A DNA stretch of 64,000 nt, taken from contig DASSCU010000017.1 of assembly GCA_035697485.1 (NCBI GenBank), positions 1-64,000 on the forward strand, given 5' to 3'. The notes beneath the pieces were generated by a model. The model searched no databases. It saw nothing but the letters and a program-made list of their open reading frames with translations, and had not been told where the DNA came from. How positions within the stretch are numbered: the stretch's first letter is position 1; every line of letters starts with the position of its first letter. Source of the stretch: Actinomycetota bacterium (GTDB lineage: Bacteria; Actinomycetota; UBA4738; HRBIN12). The position numbers and the translations under genes are program-made. Shown here one piece after another: positions 45,857 to 53,586 of this stretch.

Positions 45857-46666
45857 TCAGCCCTCGATCAGGAGTCCCCGGCGTCGCCGCACGCGCCGGT
45901 CGAGCCGGTTGAACGCGAGGTAGTCGACGAGCACGCCGATCACGGCGATCACCGCGACGACGGCCACGAGGGCGGGCATGTCGTCGGCCTCTTCCGCGAG
46001 CAGGTGTCCGAGTCCGACGGCGCCCGCCGCGGCGATGATCAGCTCCGCGGTCATCAGCGCCTTCCAGGCGAAGCCCCACGCCTGCTGCAACCCCGCGAGG
46101 AACCCGGGCAACGCGGCGGGCAGGATCACGTCGCGGTAGAGCGTCCATCCCTCGGCTCCGAGGGTGCGGCCGGCGCGCTTGAGGATCGGGGGTACCTGCC
46201 GCATCGCCGCCATCGTGGCCAGCGTGACCGACGGGAACGAGCCGACCACGGTCACGAACACGACCGCGCGCTCGGTCGCGCCGAACCAGATCACCGCGAC
46301 CGGGACCCACGCCACGAACGGCACGATCTGCAACGCCACGACGAGCGGACGGAGCGAGCGTCGAGCGAACTCGTTCAGCGTGAACGCGACGCCGAGCAGC
46401 GTGCCGAACACGACCGCGATCGCGAACGAGAACACGAGTCGGATCAGCGTCTTCAGGGTCGCCTCGGGGATCGTGCCGTCGGCCATGCCCGCGATGAACG
46501 CATCCCAGGTCTGCAGGGGGGAGGGGACGCCCTCGGTCGTCGTGACCGCTGCGATGACGGCCCAGGCGGCGATCAGACCGGTGATGCCGGCGAGCGGTGG
46601 CCCGACCTCGTGCGCGAGGCGCCGCAGGCCGATCCTCGGCACGTCGGTGGCGGTGGCCGTGCTCAC
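45857..46666 (-). CDS. ABC transporter permease (SsuC/TauC type)
   Basis: The 269-residue protein has six membrane spans and the permease EAA loop, MRQVPPILKRAGRTLGAEGW followed by YRDVILPAALPGFLAGLQQA. This belongs to the nitrate/sulfonate/taurine importer permeases. The GTG start overlaps the stop of the ATPase gene by 4 nt. Sulfur genes on both sides favour an organosulfur substrate such as sulfonates, but no substrate-binding protein gene is in this group, so the ligand is unproven. Confidence 0.85.
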   Translation of the reverse strand: MSTATATDVPRIGLRRLAHEVGPPLAGITGLIAAWAVIAAVTTTEGVPSPLQTWDAFIAGMADGTIPEATLKTLIRLVFSFAIAVVFGTLLGVAFTLNEFARRSLRPLVVALQIVPFVAWVPVAVIWFGATERAVVFVTVVGSFPSVTLATMAAMRQVPPILKRAGRTLGAEGWTLYRDVILPAALPGFLAGLQQAWGFAWKALMTAELIIAAAGAVGLGHLLAEEADDMPALVAVVAVIAVIGVLVDYLAFNRLDRRVRRRRGLLIEG

Positions 46667-47532
46667 CGGACGGACTCCTCGTCGGCGATCGGCCGGTCGC
46701 TGCCCTCGGCGCGAGCCCGGTTCACCTCGCGCATCAGCAGGTGGTGCACGTCGGAGACGACGCGTGCCACCAGCACGTCGTCGAGTTGGCGGGGCCGAGG
46801 CGCGCTGATGCGCACCTCCTCGAGCAGCCTGCCCGGCGCCGCCGACATCACGAGCACCCGATCGGCAAGCAGGGCGGCTTCCCGCACGTTGTGGGTGACG
46901 AAGACGAACGTCTTGCGCCCGCCTCGCTCGAGCCAGACTCGCTGCACCTCGTCCTGCAGTAGCTCACGCGCCTGCGCATCGAGGGCGCCGAACGGCTCAT
47001 CGCCCAGCAGCACGTCGGGCTCGGTCGCGAGCGCCCTCGCGAGCTGCGCCCGCTGGCGCATCCCGGCGGAGAGCTCGTGGGGCTGTACGTCGGCGAACGG
47101 TTCGAGGCCCACGCTCGCGAGCCACATGCGCACGCGGTGGGGCCGCTCCGACAACGGGGTACCGGTGAGCTTCAACGCGAGGTCGACGTTGCCGGCGACC
47201 GAGAGCCAAGGGAACAGGGCCGGCTCCTGGAAGAGCACGGCACGGTCGGGGCCCGGGCGGGTGATCGGGTGACCATCGAGGAGCGCCTCGCCCGAGGTCG
47301 GTTCGTCGAGCCCGGCGAGCACGTTGAGGATCGACGTCTTGCCGCACCCCGATGGTCCGAGCAGGCACAGGAACTCACCGAGCCGCACGTCGAACGTGAC
47401 GTGATCGACGGCGGTGACGACGGCTCCACTCGTCGATCGACGGGTCTTCACGAGATCGCGCACGGCGAGCTTGGGGGGTCCCTCTCCGGGGGTCTCGGCG
47501 GGTCGGAGCTCGGTGGTGCTCACATCGCTCAT
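46663..47532 (-). CDS. ABC transporter ATPase (SsuB/TauB type)
   Basis: The 289-residue ATPase carries Walker A LLGPSGCGKTSILNVLAGLD, the Q-loop LFQEPALFPWLSVAGNVDLA, signature LSAGMRQRAQLARALA, Walker B DVLLGDEPFGALDAQ and the switch His in FVFVTHNVREAALLADRVLV. The 'FPWL' Q-loop variant is typical of nitrate/sulfonate/taurine importers. It is preceded by a YezD gene (10 nt) and followed by its permease in one leftward operon. The C-terminal extension (VNRARAEGSDRPIADEESVR) is unremarkable. Confidence 0.88.
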   Translation of the reverse strand: MSDVSTTELRPAETPGEGPPKLAVRDLVKTRRSTSGAVVTAVDHVTFDVRLGEFLCLLGPSGCGKTSILNVLAGLDEPTSGEALLDGHPITRPGPDRAVLFQEPALFPWLSVAGNVDLALKLTGTPLSERPHRVRMWLASVGLEPFADVQPHELSAGMRQRAQLARALATEPDVLLGDEPFGALDAQARELLQDEVQRVWLERGGRKTFVFVTHNVREAALLADRVLVMSAAPGRLLEEVRISAPRPRQLDDVLVARVVSDVHHLLMREVNRARAEGSDRPIADEESVR

Positions 47533-47542
47533 CGAACGGCCC

Positions 47543-47749
47543 TCATCGCAGGCGGAACTTCTCGGCCATCTCGATCTGCACGACCTTGCCGTCCTGGATC
47601 ACCAGCACGACGGTGCCGTAGTTGATGCGGCGCACGATGTCGGCGACCTTCGCGAGCACGAGGCGTTCCTCTTCGGAGAGCTCGAGCGCTGCGAGCTGCT
47701 CGTCGGCCGTACCCTGCGGGCCCGATTCGATCGTCGCGTCGTCGCTCAC
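47543..47749 (-). CDS. YezD family (DUF2292) small protein, copy 1
   Basis: The 68-residue protein has the DUF2292 core: LAKVADIVRRINYGTVVLVI, then QDGKVVQIEMAEKFRLR. YezD-family proteins are often encoded with sulfate or sulfonate uptake genes, and their role is not established. A second copy sits at the end of the cysTWA operon (53359), with core IAYGTVVLVLQDGKVIQVET, so this locus carries one YezD per transporter. Starts at GTG 47749, 36 nt after the Na/Pi-like gene. Confidence 0.82.
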   Translation of the reverse strand: MSDDATIESGPQGTADEQLAALELSEEERLVLAKVADIVRRINYGTVVLVIQDGKVVQIEMAEKFRLR

Positions 47750-47785: not shown

Positions 47786-49033
47786 TCATGAGGTCACGTA
47801 GAAGAATCCCGTTGCGAGCAGCGCGAGCGGGGCGAGGAAGAGCGTGCCGACGAAGAGCGCGAGGCGCCGGTTGCTGGCGACGAGGTAGTCGTCGAGCCGC
47901 AACACGGACCGCTGCACGGGCTTGTAGAGGAAGGCCAAGATCACCACCGACACGATCGTCACGCCGATCGCCTCGGCCAGCACCACCTGTGCCGCGTCCG
48001 GGGTGGGCTGCAGCATCGCGACCACCAGCGTGTCGGCGAGCGTGGTGATGTTCGCACCCATGATGTACGGGAGCGCCTCCTCCCGCTTGATCAGCCCCTT
48101 CGCGGCGAGCGGCACGAGCACGGTGAGCGCCACGGACACCGAGAGCGTGAGCGTCGCGACGATGCATCCGAGGAAGAACATCGTCCAGGGGTGCTTCAAC
48201 CATGCAGCCCGCTTCGACGCCGTTGCGTCGCTGCTCACGTGGGGCAGCACCCGATCGATCAGGTTGAACGACACGAGGATCACGCCCAGGCCGATCAAGA
48301 AGAGCGACCATCCCGGCACGTTCGTCGCGATGACGTCGACGATCGGACCCCACAGCTTGCCGAGGACCGCGTCGAGTTTCCCTGAGGCGTGCAGGTCGAA
48401 CCCCTCGAGCCATCCTGCGCGGATGATGGCGTACCCGATCAACATGCCGGGCAGGTACACGATCGCGGTCATCGTCATCGCCTGGATGCCGATGCCGATC
48501 GAGTCGCTGCGTCCCCGCCTGATGTCGGCCTGCGACGCGCCCGCCGCGATCTGCACCTTCGCCTGCTTCGTCGCGTACAGGAACCCGGTCAGCAGCACGA
48601 TGAACGACGCGCCGAGGCGTGACCCCGACAACATCGTGAACGCCTGCAGCTTCGTCAACGCGCCCGCCCCGAAGAGGCTGATCGCCGTCGCAGCGACCGG
48701 CGAGCCCGAGAGCACGAAGTAGGCGCCCAGCCAGCCCGCGCCGAGCGTCGAGACGCCGTTGGCGAACGGGAACTGCCCCTCGATCTGCGGGCCGACCGCT
48801 GCCGCGCCCTCCTTCATCAGCTGCACGGCGAGGATGAACAGGAACATCGCGGGCACGAAGAGCAGCAGCTTGCTCGCGATATCCCACGGGGAGCGTGGTG
48901 CCTCGAACGGCCCCCAGTCGATGAGGTACCGAGCCTGGTTCGCCTCGACCGGCACGCAGAACTCGCCGTCGATCTCGACCAGCTGTGCTTCCTTCTCGAG
49001 GTCGCGTTCGAGCTCCTTGGAACGTTTGGCCAT
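47786..49033 (-). CDS. Na/Pi-cotransporter-family membrane protein, possibly a sulfur anion transporter
   Basis: The 415-residue protein starts with a charged helix (MAKRSKELERDLEKEAQLVE) followed by about nine membrane spans. The repeated family motif appears as SGSPVAATAISLFGAGALTK and ALPYIMGANITTLADTLVVA, in place of the classical 'GtNiGTt' pair, so it is a distant PF02690 member. Being first in an operon with YezD and SsuBC-like genes, and divergent from a sulfate ABC transporter, it may move sulfate or another oxyanion; phosphate is the alternative. ATG 49033 has AGGAGAGAG upstream. Its leader carries a strong hairpin and a conserved motif. Confidence 0.75.
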   Translation of the reverse strand: MAKRSKELERDLEKEAQLVEIDGEFCVPVEANQARYLIDWGPFEAPRSPWDIASKLLLFVPAMFLFILAVQLMKEGAAAVGPQIEGQFPFANGVSTLGAGWLGAYFVLSGSPVAATAISLFGAGALTKLQAFTMLSGSRLGASFIVLLTGFLYATKQAKVQIAAGASQADIRRGRSDSIGIGIQAMTMTAIVYLPGMLIGYAIIRAGWLEGFDLHASGKLDAVLGKLWGPIVDVIATNVPGWSLFLIGLGVILVSFNLIDRVLPHVSSDATASKRAAWLKHPWTMFFLGCIVATLTLSVSVALTVLVPLAAKGLIKREEALPYIMGANITTLADTLVVAMLQPTPDAAQVVLAEAIGVTIVSVVILAFLYKPVQRSVLRLDDYLVASNRRLALFVGTLFLAPLALLATGFFYVTS

Positions 49034-49058
49034 CCAGGCTCTCTCCTGAAACGAAAGG

Positions 49059-49122
49059 GGCCGCAACGCGGTGCGGGAACCATGTTCCCCCGATGCGTTG
49101 CGGCCTCCGGTCTTTCCGGTCA
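49059..49122 (-). promoter_or_regulatory. Structured leader of the Na/Pi-like operon, with the shared motif
   Basis: On the minus strand the RNA begins with TGACCGGA-AAG-ACCGGAGGCCG (49122-49101). It then forms a perfect 11-bp hairpin, GGCCGCAACGC (49105-49095) with GCGTTGCGGCC (49069-49059), whose apex contains an inner stem GGGAAC/GTTCCC. The ribosome-binding site follows about 15 nt later. Such a hairpin directly ahead of the RBS suggests control of transcription or translation. Confidence 0.5.
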
Positions 49123-49282
49123 GCTGCACCGCGAGGGTACCGCCGTGGCCGGGGGAGGGTCAACGGCCATCGGCCCTAAGACCCATCGGCCTCTTGTTGC
49201 ATTCTCGTGGCGGTAAGTCGGGGATCGGCCCGATCTCCTTGACACTCCTTCCTCCAGCCGGTAGTTCTGTCCGCGTCACGCC

Positions 49283-49316
49283 GACCGGAGCACCCGGAGG
49301 CGCTGCACTCGAAAGG
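49283..49316 (+). promoter_or_regulatory. Copy of the sulfur-locus motif in the divergent gap
   Basis: GACCGGA-GCA-CCCGGAGGC at 49283-49301 is a variant of the motif found in both leaders, and it is followed by CTCGAAAGG, as the cysP-proximal copy is. No gene lies in 49123-49361. Confidence 0.4.
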
Positions 49317-49331
49317 CCGGCTGATCCGCAC

Positions 49332-49349
49332 CGCGCGATCGGTCGCGCG
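49332..49349 (+). promoter_or_regulatory. Perfect hairpin upstream of the sulfate operon
   Basis: CGCGCGA-TCGG-TCGCGCG forms a 7-bp stem with a tetraloop, followed by AACCCTTTCGG. It lies 13 nt before the shared motif and could be a terminator-like or structural part of the leader. Confidence 0.45.
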
Positions 49350-49361
49350 AACCCTTTCGGT

Positions 49362-49414
49362 TGACCGGACCACCGGAGGCCGAGCACCCAGAGGCCCCGG
49401 CAACTCGCCGGTCA
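49362..49414 (+). promoter_or_regulatory. Structured leader of the sulfate ABC operon, candidate riboswitch-like element
   Basis: TGACCGG (49362-49368) pairs perfectly with CCGGTCA (49408-49414), enclosing ACCACCGGAGGCC, GAGCACCCAGA and GGCCCCGGCAACTCG. The internal GGCC/GGCC and the CCGGCAAC segment recall, loosely, the core of S-box-type SAM riboswitches, but the consensus is not met. The element ends 6 nt before the ribosome-binding site GAAAGGAG. A metabolite- or protein-binding leader is plausible. Confidence 0.4.
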
Positions 49415-49429
49415 TCGAAAGGAGCTCGG

Positions 49430-50524
49430 ATGTCGTTCTATCCCCCGCGGCGCTTCGCGTCCGCACGCTGGGCGCGTTCGCTCGCGCTCGCGCTCGTTCC
49501 CCTCACGATCCTCGCGGCATGCTCGTCCGACTCGGGCGGTGGCGACACGCAGTCGTCGGCCGCAGGCGGGCCGTGCACACCCCCGGAGACGCCGGTGGTC
49601 AACTTCGCCGCATACAGCACGCCGCGCGAGGCCTACGGTCAGATCATCCCGGCCTTCGTGTCGAAGTGGAAGGAAGAGCACGACGACCAGAACGTGATCT
49701 TCCAGGAGTCCTACGCGGGCTCGACCACGCAGGCGGCGAACGTGATCGCCGGCTACGAGGCCGACGTGGTCGCGCTCTCGCTCGGGCCCGACGTGGACGA
49801 GATCGCCGACGCCGGCCTGATCACGCACGACTGGACCGACCAGCCCGACGGCGGCATGGTCTCGACCTCGGTCGTCGTGTTCGACGTCCGTCCCGGCAAC
49901 CCCGAGGGCTTCCAGGACTGGAACGACCTCGCCGCCGACGGCGTCGAGATCCTCACCCCCGACCCGGCATCGAGCGGCGGCGCACGGTGGAACCTGGTCT
50001 CCCTGTGGGGCTCGGCGCTCCGCGGCTACGCCGGCATGACCGCCGACGACACGGCGGGCGCGACGACGCTGATGCAGGACGTGCTCTCGAACGTGATCGT
50101 GTTCGACAAGAACGCCCGTGACTCGATCCAGAACTTCGAGGCGGGGAACGGCGACGTCGCGATCACCTATGAGAACGAGGTGCTCACCGCGCAGGAGGCT
50201 GGGCTCGAGGACGAGGCTGTCTACCCGCCGTCGACCGTGTTGATCGAGAACCCGGTCGCGGTCGTGGACCAGTGGGTCGACGAACACTGTGTGCGCGACG
50301 TGGCCGAGGCGTTCGTCGAGTTCCTGCACTCCGACGAGGCCAAGGAGATCTACACCGAGGTGGGCCACCTGCGGTCCACCGACACGAAGGAAGCCCAGAA
50401 GGGCGGCGGCCAGTTCCCGCCGATCGAGGACCTGTTCACGGTCGACGAGATCGGCGGCTGGGACGCCCTGAACGAAGAACTGTTCAGCGACAGCGGCATC
50501 GTCACCCAGGCGATCGCCGGCTGA
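49430..50524 (+). CDS. Sulfate ABC transporter substrate-binding lipoprotein
   Basis: The 364-residue protein has a lipoprotein signal ending in the lipobox LTILAACSS, then a Sbp/CysP-type binding fold: VNFAAYSTPREAYGQIIPAF, FQESYAGSTTQAANVIAGYE, DVVALSLGPDVDEIADAGLI, ILTPDPASSGGARWNLVSLW, and VDEHCVRDVAEAFVEFLHS. These contain the sulfate-contacting segments of the family. Thiosulfate may also bind. ATG 49430 follows AAAGGAGCTCGG. It is the first gene of the cysP-T-W-A-yezD operon. Confidence 0.92.
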   Translation: MSFYPPRRFASARWARSLALALVPLTILAACSSDSGGGDTQSSAAGGPCTPPETPVVNFAAYSTPREAYGQIIPAFVSKWKEEHDDQNVIFQESYAGSTTQAANVIAGYEADVVALSLGPDVDEIADAGLITHDWTDQPDGGMVSTSVVVFDVRPGNPEGFQDWNDLAADGVEILTPDPASSGGARWNLVSLWGSALRGYAGMTADDTAGATTLMQDVLSNVIVFDKNARDSIQNFEAGNGDVAITYENEVLTAQEAGLEDEAVYPPSTVLIENPVAVVDQWVDEHCVRDVAEAFVEFLHSDEAKEIYTEVGHLRSTDTKEAQKGGGQFPPIEDLFTVDEIGGWDALNEELFSDSGIVTQAIAG

Positions 50525-50559: not shown

Positions 50560-51423
50560 ATGAGCAACGCCGCGCAGATCACGATCGAACGCAGCCGGAC
50601 CCGGCTCTCTCCGCGGTCAGCTGCACGGCTGCGGCGATACACGCTGCGCGGCGTTGCTCTCGTCTACCTCGGCGCCATGGTGGCGCTGCCGGTGATCGCG
50701 GTGATCTCGAAGGGGTTCAGCGAGGGGCTCGATGGGTTGCGCACCGCCCTCGCGATCCCGGGAGCGACGGCCGCGATCCGGCTCACGTTGATCACGTCGA
50801 CCCTCGCCGCGCTGATCAACGCCGTCATGGGCACGATGCTCGCCTACGTGCTGGTGCGCTTCTCGTTCCCGGGCAAGCGATTCCTGTCGGCGGTCGTCGA
50901 CCTGCCGCTCGCGATCCCTACGCTCGTCACGGGAGTGATGCTCGTGGCCCTGTACGGGCCCGCGTCGCCGATCGGAGGGTTCCTCGATCGGCTGGGCATC
51001 CAGGTGATCTTCACGCCGATCGCCATCATGCTCGCGTTGCTCGTCGTGACGCTGCCCCTCGTGGTGCGCAGCGTGCAACCCGTGCTCCAGGAGCTCGACG
51101 ACGCCGAAGAGGAAGCCGCGGCCACCCTCGGCGCGAACGGTTTCACCACGTTCCGAAAGGTCGTGTTCCCGGCGATCCGCGTCGCGATCGTGGGCGGCAC
51201 GCTGCTCACGTTCGCGCGCTGCCTCGGCGAGTTCGGCAGCGTCGTGCTCGTCGCCGGCAACCGGGCCGGGGAGACCCTCACCGCCCCCGTCTTCATCTTC
51301 CAACTCGCGAACCAGTTCCGTCCGATCGAGGCGGCGGCGGTCGCGACGCTGCTATTCAGCATCTCCTTCGTGCTCGTGCTGGTGACCGCACGCCTGCTGA
51401 AGCGGAAGGAGGACGACGCATGA
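50560..51423 (+). CDS. cysT: Sulfate ABC transporter permease CysT
   Basis: The 287-residue protein has six membrane spans and a typical CysT/CysU sequence: AVVDLPLAIPTLVTGVMLVA, ELDDAEEEAAATLGANGFTT (EAA loop), RCLGEFGSVVLVAGNRAGET and PVFIFQLANQFRPIEAAAVA. ATG 50560 is 35 nt after the binding-protein gene. Its stop overlaps cysW (ATGA). Confidence 0.93.
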   Translation: MSNAAQITIERSRTRLSPRSAARLRRYTLRGVALVYLGAMVALPVIAVISKGFSEGLDGLRTALAIPGATAAIRLTLITSTLAALINAVMGTMLAYVLVRFSFPGKRFLSAVVDLPLAIPTLVTGVMLVALYGPASPIGGFLDRLGIQVIFTPIAIMLALLVVTLPLVVRSVQPVLQELDDAEEEAAATLGANGFTTFRKVVFPAIRVAIVGGTLLTFARCLGEFGSVVLVAGNRAGETLTAPVFIFQLANQFRPIEAAAVATLLFSISFVLVLVTARLLKRKEDDA

Positions 51424-52280
51424 GGACCCCCTCCGATGCCCCCTCCGTCTTCCCTCCCGGCGGCGGTCGCCGGCGCCTCGTGCGCGGCGGAATCGTCGTG
51501 GCGTGCCTCCTGTATGTCGGCGTCCTGCTGCTGCTGCCCCTCGCGGGCATCGTCTACACCGCCCTCGAACCGGGCTGGTCCAAGGTCGTCGAGACGTTCT
51601 CGCGCCCCGACGTGCAGCATGCCTTCGTCCTCACCGGGGTGATCACCGTGATCACGGTGGCGGTCACGACGTTCTTCGGCGTGATCACGGCCTGGGTGCT
51701 CGTGCGCCAGCGCTTCGTCGGCAAGTCGCTGCTGAACGCGCTCGTCGACCTTCCCTTCGCGCTGTCGCCGGTCACGGTCGGGCTCGCCGCGGTCATCCTG
51801 TTCGGGTTCGGCGGCTGGCTCGAACCCTTCTTCGAGGCTCGCGGCATCCAGGTGATCTTCGCGGTGCCCTCGATGGTGCTCGTCACGATCTTCATCTGCA
51901 TCCCCTTCACGATCCGCGAGGTCGTGCCGGTGCTGGAGGAGATCGGCAAGGACGAAGAGGATGCGTCGCGAACCCTCGGCGCGTCGATCCTGCAGACGTG
52001 GCGCAGGGTCACCCTGCCGAACATCCGCTGGGGCATCCTCTACGGCGTCGCGCTCACGATCGCGCGTTCGATCGGCGAGATCGGCGCCGTGCTGATCGTG
52101 AGCGGCCTGATCAAGGGGAAGACCGAGACCGCGACACTGTTCATCTTCACGGCGATCGAGGAACGCCAGGACGCCGAGGCGTACATCGTCGCCCTCACGC
52201 TCGCCGCCGTCTCCATCGTGCTGCTCGTCGGCATCGAGACCGCGCGACATCGCATCGAAGGAAGGAAGGTACGCACATGA
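51420..52280 (+). CDS. cysW: Sulfate ABC transporter permease CysW
   Basis: The 286-residue protein has six spans, LVDLPFALSPVTVGLAAVIL, EEIGKDEEDASRTLGASILQ (EAA loop), ARSIGEIGAVLIVSGLIKGK and TATLFIFTAIEERQDAEAYI, which is the CysW pattern. The ATG overlaps the cysT stop and the stop overlaps the cysA ATG, so all three are translationally coupled. Confidence 0.93.
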   Translation: MRTPSDAPSVFPPGGGRRRLVRGGIVVACLLYVGVLLLLPLAGIVYTALEPGWSKVVETFSRPDVQHAFVLTGVITVITVAVTTFFGVITAWVLVRQRFVGKSLLNALVDLPFALSPVTVGLAAVILFGFGGWLEPFFEARGIQVIFAVPSMVLVTIFICIPFTIREVVPVLEEIGKDEEDASRTLGASILQTWRRVTLPNIRWGILYGVALTIARSIGEIGAVLIVSGLIKGKTETATLFIFTAIEERQDAEAYIVALTLAAVSIVLLVGIETARHRIEGRKVRT

Positions 52281-53362
52281 GCACGCCGATCGTGGTCGAG
52301 CAGCTCACCAAACGGTTCGGCTCGTTCGAGGCCGTGCGAGACGTGTCGTTCACGGCGCCCGGTGGCGCGATCACCGCGCTGCTCGGGCCGTCGGGGTCGG
52401 GCAAGAGCACCGTCCTGCGCATGATCGCGGGCCTGGAGGACCCCAACCAAGGACGCATCTGGCTCGGCGACGTGGAGCTCACGCCCAAGAGCGTGCAGGA
52501 GCGTCGCGTGGGGTTCGTGTTCCAGCATTACGCGCTGTTCCGGCACATGACGGTCGCGCAGAACGTGGAGTTCGGGCTGGCCGTCCGAAAGCAGGCCAGG
52601 GCCGATCGGAAGGCGCGCGTCGACGAGCTGCTCGAGCTCGTGCAGCTCACGCACTTCGCGAAGCGGTACCCCGACCAGCTCTCGGGCGGGCAGCGACAGC
52701 GCGTCGCGCTCGCACGTGCGCTGGCCCCGCGGCCCGAGGTGTTGCTGCTCGACGAGCCGTTCGGCGCGCTCGACGCGAAGGTGCGCCAAGACCTGCGGCA
52801 GTGGCTCGACGAGCTGCATCGCGAGCTGGGCGTCACGAGCCTGCTGGTGACGCACGACCAGGAAGAAGCGCTCGAGCTCGCGAACCAGATCGTCGTGATG
52901 CACGAGGGTCTCGTGCAGCAGGTCGGCTCCCCGAGCGAGATCTACGACGATCCGAAGACCCCGTTCGTCGCCGGCTTCGTCGGTTCCGCGAACGTGTTGC
53001 ACGGCGTGGTCGAGGGTGGCCACGTGCACCTGGGAGCCTTCCGGGTCCCTGCGGCAGAGCATCTGGAGGAGGGCGCGGCAGCCACGGCGTTCGTGCGACC
53101 GCACGACGTGCGGGTCGCGCCGAAGGGTGCGAACGGCCATGGCGCCGATGGCGCGCCGCTCGCGATCGGTCGCGTCGAGCGCATCTCGTCGCTCGGCTGG
53201 CTCACGCGGCTCACGATCCGCCTCGACGGCGACGGAGATCACACCCTGGTCGCCCACGTCCCTCAGTCCGATCTGGCCGGCGCCTCTGAGGGCGACCTCG
53301 TGAGCGTCGGCCTGCTCAACCCCAAGACGTTCGATCACGGCGAGGTCGCGGCCGGCGAGTGA
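52277..53362 (+). CDS. cysA: Sulfate/thiosulfate ABC transporter ATPase
   Basis: The 361-residue ATPase carries Walker A LLGPSGSGKSTVLRMIAGLE, Q-loop FVFQHYALFRHMTVAQNVEF, signature QLSGGQRQRVALARALA, Walker B EVLLLDEPFGALDAKVRQDL and the switch His (LLVTHDQEEAL). The C-terminal domain (ATAFVRPHDVRVAPKG, VERISSLGWLTRLTIRLDGD) is the TOBE-like regulatory part of CysA. The gene overlaps yezD copy 2 (GTGA). Confidence 0.94.
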   Translation: MSTPIVVEQLTKRFGSFEAVRDVSFTAPGGAITALLGPSGSGKSTVLRMIAGLEDPNQGRIWLGDVELTPKSVQERRVGFVFQHYALFRHMTVAQNVEFGLAVRKQARADRKARVDELLELVQLTHFAKRYPDQLSGGQRQRVALARALAPRPEVLLLDEPFGALDAKVRQDLRQWLDELHRELGVTSLLVTHDQEEALELANQIVVMHEGLVQQVGSPSEIYDDPKTPFVAGFVGSANVLHGVVEGGHVHLGAFRVPAAEHLEEGAAATAFVRPHDVRVAPKGANGHGADGAPLAIGRVERISSLGWLTRLTIRLDGDGDHTLVAHVPQSDLAGASEGDLVSVGLLNPKTFDHGEVAAGE

Positions 53363-53586
53363 GCGCGGGTATGCCCTTGCGAGTCGTGGACGGCGACGAC
53401 GGGTCCTCGGATCGGGAGATCCCCACCGAGGTGCTCCGGTTCGCCGGGCTCCCGCCCGAGCAGCGAGCGCTGTTGCTGCACGTGCACGATCTGTTGGCCG
53501 GCATCGCCTACGGCACCGTGGTGCTGGTGTTGCAGGACGGCAAGGTGATCCAGGTGGAGACCTCGGAGAAGATCCGGCTGAAGTGA
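53359..53586 (+). CDS. YezD family (DUF2292) small protein, copy 2
   Basis: The 75-residue protein has the DUF2292 core LHVHDLLAGIAYGTVVLVLQ followed by DGKVIQVETSEKIRLK, clearly paralogous to the protein encoded at 47543-47749. The N-terminus is more acidic (VVDGDDGSSDREIPTEVLRF). The GTG overlaps the cysA stop; ATG 53371 is a possible alternative. Last gene of the sulfate operon. Role unknown; linkage to sulfur uptake is the only clue. Confidence 0.82.
   Translation: MSAGMPLRVVDGDDGSSDREIPTEVLRFAGLPPEQRALLLHVHDLLAGIAYGTVVLVLQDGKVIQVETSEKIRLK

Follow-up and report, generated by a model that had tools for sequence, protein, structure and literature searches.

The question that this locus raises is whether the leaders of two divergent operons connected with sulfur uptake share one regulatory signal, and whether this signal acts as RNA or as DNA. 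In the window, which is the whole stretch of 64,000 nucleotides of actinobacterial DNA that was analysed, the plus-strand operon begins with a gene for a sulfate/thiosulfate-type solute-binding lipoprotein (cysP/sbp-like, 49430..50524; PF13531, E 9e-32), which is followed by the genes of two ABC permeases, cysT-like (50560..51423) and cysW-like (51420..52280), of the sulfate ABC ATPase CysA (52277..53362; CysA_C_terminal PF17850) and, as the last gene of this cys operon, of a second YezD/DUF2292 protein (53371..53586; PF10055, E 3e-14). The first gene of the minus-strand operon encodes a Na/Pi-cotransporter-like membrane protein (47789..49033; PF02690, E 1.3e-9); the operon also contains a YezD/DUF2292 gene (47543..47749; PF10055, E 2e-15), whose product is the candidate trans-acting factor, and the genes of an SsuB-like ABC ATPase (46663..47532) and an SsuC-like ABC permease (45857..46666). 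The two yezD paralogs of the window differ from each other, and the second one (53371-53586) has no adjoining element.

The motif TGACCGGA-CC-ACCGGAGGCCG can be read directly from the sequence at 49362-49382 of the plus strand and TGACCGGA-AAG-ACCGGAGGCCG at 49122-49101 of the minus strand, while a third copy, GACCGGAGCACCCGGAG, lies at 49283 (+). The original prediction had given these sequences and positions correctly, and its observation that the copies point at their own genes held for all three of them. Copy B (49354..49388, +), which is placed ahead of cysP, scored 37.1 bits with the R3 model (E 2e-8) and is composed of the outer stem P1 (49357-49362/49378-49383) and the inner stem P2 (CCGG 49365-49368/CCGG 49373-49376), which is closed by the loop ACCA. 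The minus-strand copy (49095..49130; loop AAAGA; R3 36.9 bits, E 2.4e-8) precedes the Na/Pi-like/YezD/SsuBC-like operon. Copy A (49274..49309, +; R3 28.8 bits, E about 1e-5) presumably begins at the putative transcription start of the cysP operon, as a sigma-70-like promoter is predicted from the directly read sequence TTGACA-17 nt-TAGTTC (49239..49267, +), so that the transcript would start with this copy.

Motif statistics inside the window alone showed no significance, with 3-4 matches of the pattern with two mismatches compared with about two expected; genome-wide, the core pattern had seven matches and its reversed control six. Three of these seven lie no more than 275 bp apart, in the two leaders. 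It is therefore the position in leaders and the conservation in relatives and other phyla, not the pattern counts, that place the motif above chance. Among the 27 genomes of the window's class that were compared, the cysP orthologs of six (G002, G004, G005, G007, G010 and G014) carry TGACCGGANNNCCGGAG about 30-50 nt ahead of the Shine-Dalgarno sequence, and most of them have a second copy near the presumed start site; copy A is also present in G002, G004, G005, G010 and G014. The motif was absent from two cysP-like genes of another family of the same order (L028, L030). The covariance-model search that had been proposed together with the original prediction additionally found the element ahead of the genes of SsuA-like binding proteins (G003, G015, G019, G020) and TauE/SafE-like exporters (G002, G006, G012), names that were read from the translations and are not database assignments. 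At these genes, P2 is often CCAG/CTGG instead of CCGG/CCGG, and a terminator comes directly next. The element recurs at cysP orthologs of the same family, at other sulfur operons and at yezD loci, and its range extends over Actinomycetota, Bacillota and Geobacteraceae. The idea that the motif belongs to the Na/Pi gene was rejected: it is missing from relatives of that gene elsewhere and so follows sulfur operons instead. Weak model matches inside coding sequences such as ribonucleotide reductase (L076-L081) and low-scoring matches elsewhere in the phylum (L114-L116, L118-L125) were set aside as chance. An exact Bacillus-type element also occurs in one viral contig of IMG/VR (L343 5866-5887).

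The consensus of the element, roughly 28 nt long, is 5'-P1-UGA-CYRG-A(N2-3)A-CYRG-AG-P1'-3', in which P1 (6 bp, closed by U-G or C-G), a GA/A internal loop, P2 (4 bp, CYRG/CYRG) and an A-rich loop of the form A-N(2-3)-A follow one another. The loop is four nucleotides long in 71 and five in 46 of the 117 copies, mostly AAAA, ACAA or AAAAA; the unpaired G10, A11 and A25 are near-invariant, and one copy per leader is usual. A check of the stems for covariation, also suggested at the outset, revealed double-sided changes that kept the pairing at nine of the ten base pairs among 116 distinct copies from Actinomycetota, Bacillota and Geobacteraceae, although these alignment rows were retrieved by a covariance model that contains the structure and are biased toward it. 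There were 290 double-sided cells with pairing kept compared with 119.5 after shuffling, and no slid control came close; paired cells made up 91.5% compared with 74.6% in the shuffled and 25-51% in the slid controls. A pattern count that was free of any pairing requirement showed that nearly all of the non-actinobacterial matches are paired, by means of four main versions of P2 (CCGG/CCGG, CTAG/CTAG, CTGG/CCAG and CCAG/CTGG), and the variants CTAA/TTAG, CTGA/TCAG and GCAG/CTGC were later found near yezD. These results bear on the idea that the motif is a DNA operator of a transcription factor common to the divergent promoters. Read as DNA, the CCGG cores are indeed palindromes, and the presumed start site falls at copy A, but the covariation of P1 and P2, the position in the leader, the orientation tied to the gene and a 3' half that is common to terminators argue against it; since covariation and orientation contradict an operator, we rejected this highly improbable explanation.

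No known RNA family accounts for the hairpin. An Rfam cmscan of positions 48000-50500 at E<=10 returned one unrelated chance match and no SAM match, which makes the earlier-noticed likeness of CCGGCAAC to the S-box superficial, and a scan of the whole window at the gathering threshold returned only one tRNA. When the leaders with the element from other phyla were compared with 4227 Rfam families (gathering or E<=1), SAM, tRNA and BsrC matches were found elsewhere in them and none covered the element. The statement that no known riboswitch class has this consensus was thus borne out, in that no Rfam model matches it. We found no description of the element in the literature, and it appears to be a previously undescribed family of RNA hairpins, one that is absent from Rfam. 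The main text of Naville and Gautheret (2010) mentions an unnamed candidate attenuator of bacilli that precedes a sulfonate ABC operon and an uncharacterised gene, and gives no structure, regulon or link to YezD for it (PMC2965389); this attenuator is possibly an early sighting of the same element.

A hairpin resembling an intrinsic terminator, with a T run, starts in the 3' half of the element in 90 of the 117 copies compared with 22 of 306 random positions (for example, AACCAGAGGtaaataaaaCCTCTGGTTTTTT). Because the 5' arm of the terminator starts inside the element, the two structures are mutually exclusive. The minus-strand leader of the window is of this transcriptional type: its terminator-like hairpin (49057..49108, -; -36.5 kcal/mol), whose 5' arm GGAGGCC... 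starts within the element, is formed by GGCCGCAACGC...GCGTTGCGGCC and then CCTTTCGTTT, and is followed by the T-rich tail TTTCGTTT at 49056-49049. The 7-bp stem and the perfect 11-bp hairpin that had been described beside the motifs are both present; the 11-bp hairpin, on the minus strand, is the competing intrinsic terminator and not a companion structure. The cysP-type leaders (n=9), which lack a terminator, offer a translational alternative. In eight of them, the 5' half of the element pairs with the Shine-Dalgarno region (CCTTTCG-GTTGACCGG with CCGGTCATCGAAAGGAG; z -2.9 to -5.7), while in the cysP leader of G002 this pairing is not possible. In the window, the predicted anti-Shine-Dalgarno helix joins 49351-49368 (ACCCTTTCGGTTGACCGG) with 49408-49424 (CCGGTCATCGAAAGGAG) on the plus strand. 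The 5' half of copy B takes part in this helix, which would mask AAAGGAG (49418-49424); the duplex has -24.4 kcal/mol compared with a shuffled mean of -9.5 (z -5.7). Sequence and energy thus indicate an attenuator built on mutually exclusive structures. We consider it very well founded that the RNA element is real and has the architecture of an ON switch, and in both types this architecture points to the formed hairpin as the ON state.

The reverse arrangement, in which a factor would favour the terminator or the form that hides the Shine-Dalgarno sequence, for instance at high SAM or cysteine together with YezD, appears quite unlikely. The element is usually the less stable of the two structures (-14.2 versus -36.5 kcal/mol for the terminator in the window; median of the element -9.9), and the direction of the switch therefore rests on inference. 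However, terminator formation is excluded by the very structure that covaries and is most conserved, so a factor that recognises this structure would favour read-through. SAM riboswitches are OFF switches at high SAM, and such a riboswitch ahead of yezD, as found for SAM-I in many Bacillaceae and Clostridium, would yield YezD under sulfur shortage, when the genes are needed. In the licheniformis group, where yezD likewise follows a SAM-I riboswitch, a cysH-like gene lies downstream of it. An attenuator of another kind, based on a cysteine leader peptide, has been proposed for the cys operons of Mycobacterium (PMC1262725), and devices of this kind are known from actinobacterial cys operons. A covarying hairpin is not part of it, and we rejected it as the least probable of all explanations because all frames of both leaders of the window lack runs of Cys codons.

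The genes behind the element are overwhelmingly sulfur genes, part of which were named from the translation only. Behind the copies away from yezD, we found cysK, O-acetylhomoserine sulfhydrylase, metK, cysH and a serine acetyltransferase-like gene, cystine and sulfonate ABC transporters, a rhodanese and a PiT-type permease, as well as nitrogenase-like nifH/D/B homologs; a few genes have no clear link to sulfur (a cell-wall-binding-repeat protein, an aminotransferase and a patatin-like protein). Nitrogenase-like nifH/D/K/B clusters adjoin elements or yezD at L280-L284, L311, L196, L200 and L202 and are possibly sulfur scavenging systems of the methylthio-alkane reductase type. A SAM-I riboswitch sometimes shares the leader with the element (L277, L172). 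In C. ljungdahlii (L277 1850-2401, -), an element at the 5' end, a SAM-I riboswitch and a second element with a terminator follow one another ahead of a cystine-type ABC permease, a layout that resembles copy A and copy B of the cysP leader in the window. Moreover, a tRNA-Cys(GCA) gene comes directly after yezD and the element-terminator at L153 (4233-4304) and L161 (4225-4294), and likewise at L168, L171, L175, L191, L194, L195 and L211; these loci belong to Lachnospiraceae and related Clostridia, and the adjacency hints at a special tRNA-Cys that is controlled in the same way. Taken with the covariation, the orientation, the overlap with the terminator or Shine-Dalgarno sequence and the absence from Rfam, this regulon supports the initial proposal of a cis-acting RNA or regulator site that co-controls sulfur uptake.

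The presence of the element corresponded closely to that of yezD. In the window's class, PF10055 (DUF2292) was found in all 13 genomes with the element and in none of the 14 others, and the within-genus contrasts agreed (G003/G013, G015/G011 and G004 with G014/G016, of which G013, G015 and G016 are incomplete). Across 396 Actinomycetota, DUF2292 was present in 16 genomes, among them all 13 that have a strong element (E<=1e-4), and the remaining three have an element adjoining yezD that was recognised by eye. A similar association was observed in 391 Clostridia that were sampled regardless of element or yezD: 33 (8%) have yezD, 24 the element and 22 both (Fisher p 1e-25, or 1e-23 without two genomes already met; these p-values ignore phylogeny). 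No element was detected in some genomes with yezD, including 11 Clostridia at the first pass, several of which had a variant element 3' of yezD on closer inspection. Among 70 non-actinobacterial yezD loci searched GTDB-wide, 41 have an element that starts -20 to +220 nt from where the yezD match ends, in most cases overlapping or adjoining the stop codon. At L163 (4131-4165) and many other loci of Lachnospiraceae, the yezD stop codon is at once the UGA of the element, which may couple translation termination to the hairpin. Two Geobacteraceae genomes have the element only at sites away from yezD, which makes the co-occurrence more than operon hitch-hiking, although it also reflects shared ancestry and the membership of yezD in its own regulon. 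From co-occurrence and linkage, YezD is a likely partner of the element.

The same data weigh on the explanation that the hairpin is a very small, protein-free metabolite riboswitch for O-acetylserine, cysteine or another sulfur compound and that yezD is merely one of the regulated genes, which we regard as possible but unlikely. Small hairpin riboswitches such as preQ1-I and guanidine-II exist, the near-invariant unpaired G10, A11 and A25 could make a pocket together with the A-rich loop, and two Clostridia genomes (G444 and G527; L333, L334) have a good element with no detectable DUF2292. The element at L333 precedes a phage-like-looking gene. On the other hand, a protein-free riboswitch should reach genomes that lack yezD, yet yezD is present in 22 of the 24 element-bearing Clostridia and in all 13 such genomes of the window's class. 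The very small size of the hairpin and the shortness of its GA/A internal loop also speak against a riboswitch.

The best explanation, which we hold to be probable, is an ON-switch hairpin with YezD as its stabilising factor and low SAM or cysteine as the signal. The element hairpin would compete with an OFF structure, either the terminator (transcriptional) or the anti-Shine-Dalgarno helix (translational), and its stabilisation would switch on the genes for sulfur assimilation and uptake. By binding to and stabilising the hairpin when sulfur is short, YezD would bring about antitermination or free the ribosome-binding site. In Bacillus and Clostridium, low SAM would lead to the production of YezD from behind its SAM riboswitch, and YezD would then open the other sulfur operons; via an element copy located immediately 3' of yezD, it would also switch on the genes that follow yezD. 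No SAM riboswitch was found in the leaders of the window, and the signal there would have to reach YezD by another route. The protein itself, in its AlphaFold model, consists of a helix and a beta-hairpin and has the invariant residues G, Q, D, K, Q, I and K. A fold search matched none of the known RNA-binding folds and gave no functional hint, and a comparison with PDB sequences returned nothing beyond designed coiled coils and weak matches due to chance. These results speak against the explanation, as do the genomes that have only one of element and yezD and the acidic character of the YezD of the window (computed pI 4.5), although the YezD proteins of Bacillus and Lachnospiraceae are basic. 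DUF2292/YezD (PF10055) is listed as uncharacterised, and no function or RNA partner was found in the literature searched; the deletion of yezD in B. subtilis left starvation survival unaffected, which is a different phenotype (PMC6385201).

Among the known systems, the element resembles the RAT of BglG/LicT in being a short hairpin with an internal loop that overlaps the 5' arm of an intrinsic terminator, and read-through upon the binding of a small protein would be shared if YezD binds as we infer. However, its sequence and structure are different, it controls sulfur instead of sugar genes and it also has a translational version; a CAT_RBD (PF03123) protein was found in none of the 27 genomes of the class by a search that was positive in four controls. 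With SAM-I (the S-box), the element has in common a sulfur regulon and a mutually exclusive terminator, but it is a hairpin of about 28 nt without a match to RF00162 and probably works in the opposite sense (ON). ANTAR systems, like the proposed model, use protein-dependent antitermination, sometimes with tandem hairpins. The RNAs of ANTAR systems consist of paired hairpins that carry hexaloops, while the loops of the element have 4-5 nt and a single copy is usual. It also differs from guanidine-II (mini-ykkC), which has two hairpins with ACGR loops, in its mostly A-rich loops, its single copies and the lack of an Rfam match.

The link to YezD and the spread over several phyla are new relative to the original prediction, and neither was visible from the window alone. 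If the proposed reading is true, the element would be a widespread, unannotated cis-regulatory RNA that, in Bacillota, Actinomycetota and Geobacteraceae, controls genes for sulfate, sulfonate, cysteine and methionine; it would explain the co-control of sulfur operons that lack an S-box. It would also provide the first function for the tiny conserved family DUF2292/YezD and represent a protein-relayed extension of the S-box regulon. It is feasible, and we lean slightly toward this view, that YezD/DUF2292 founds a family of very small RNA-binding antiterminators that recognise this dedicated hairpin ahead of many sulfur operons and relay the signal of SAM riboswitches to riboswitch-less sulfur operons in several phyla.
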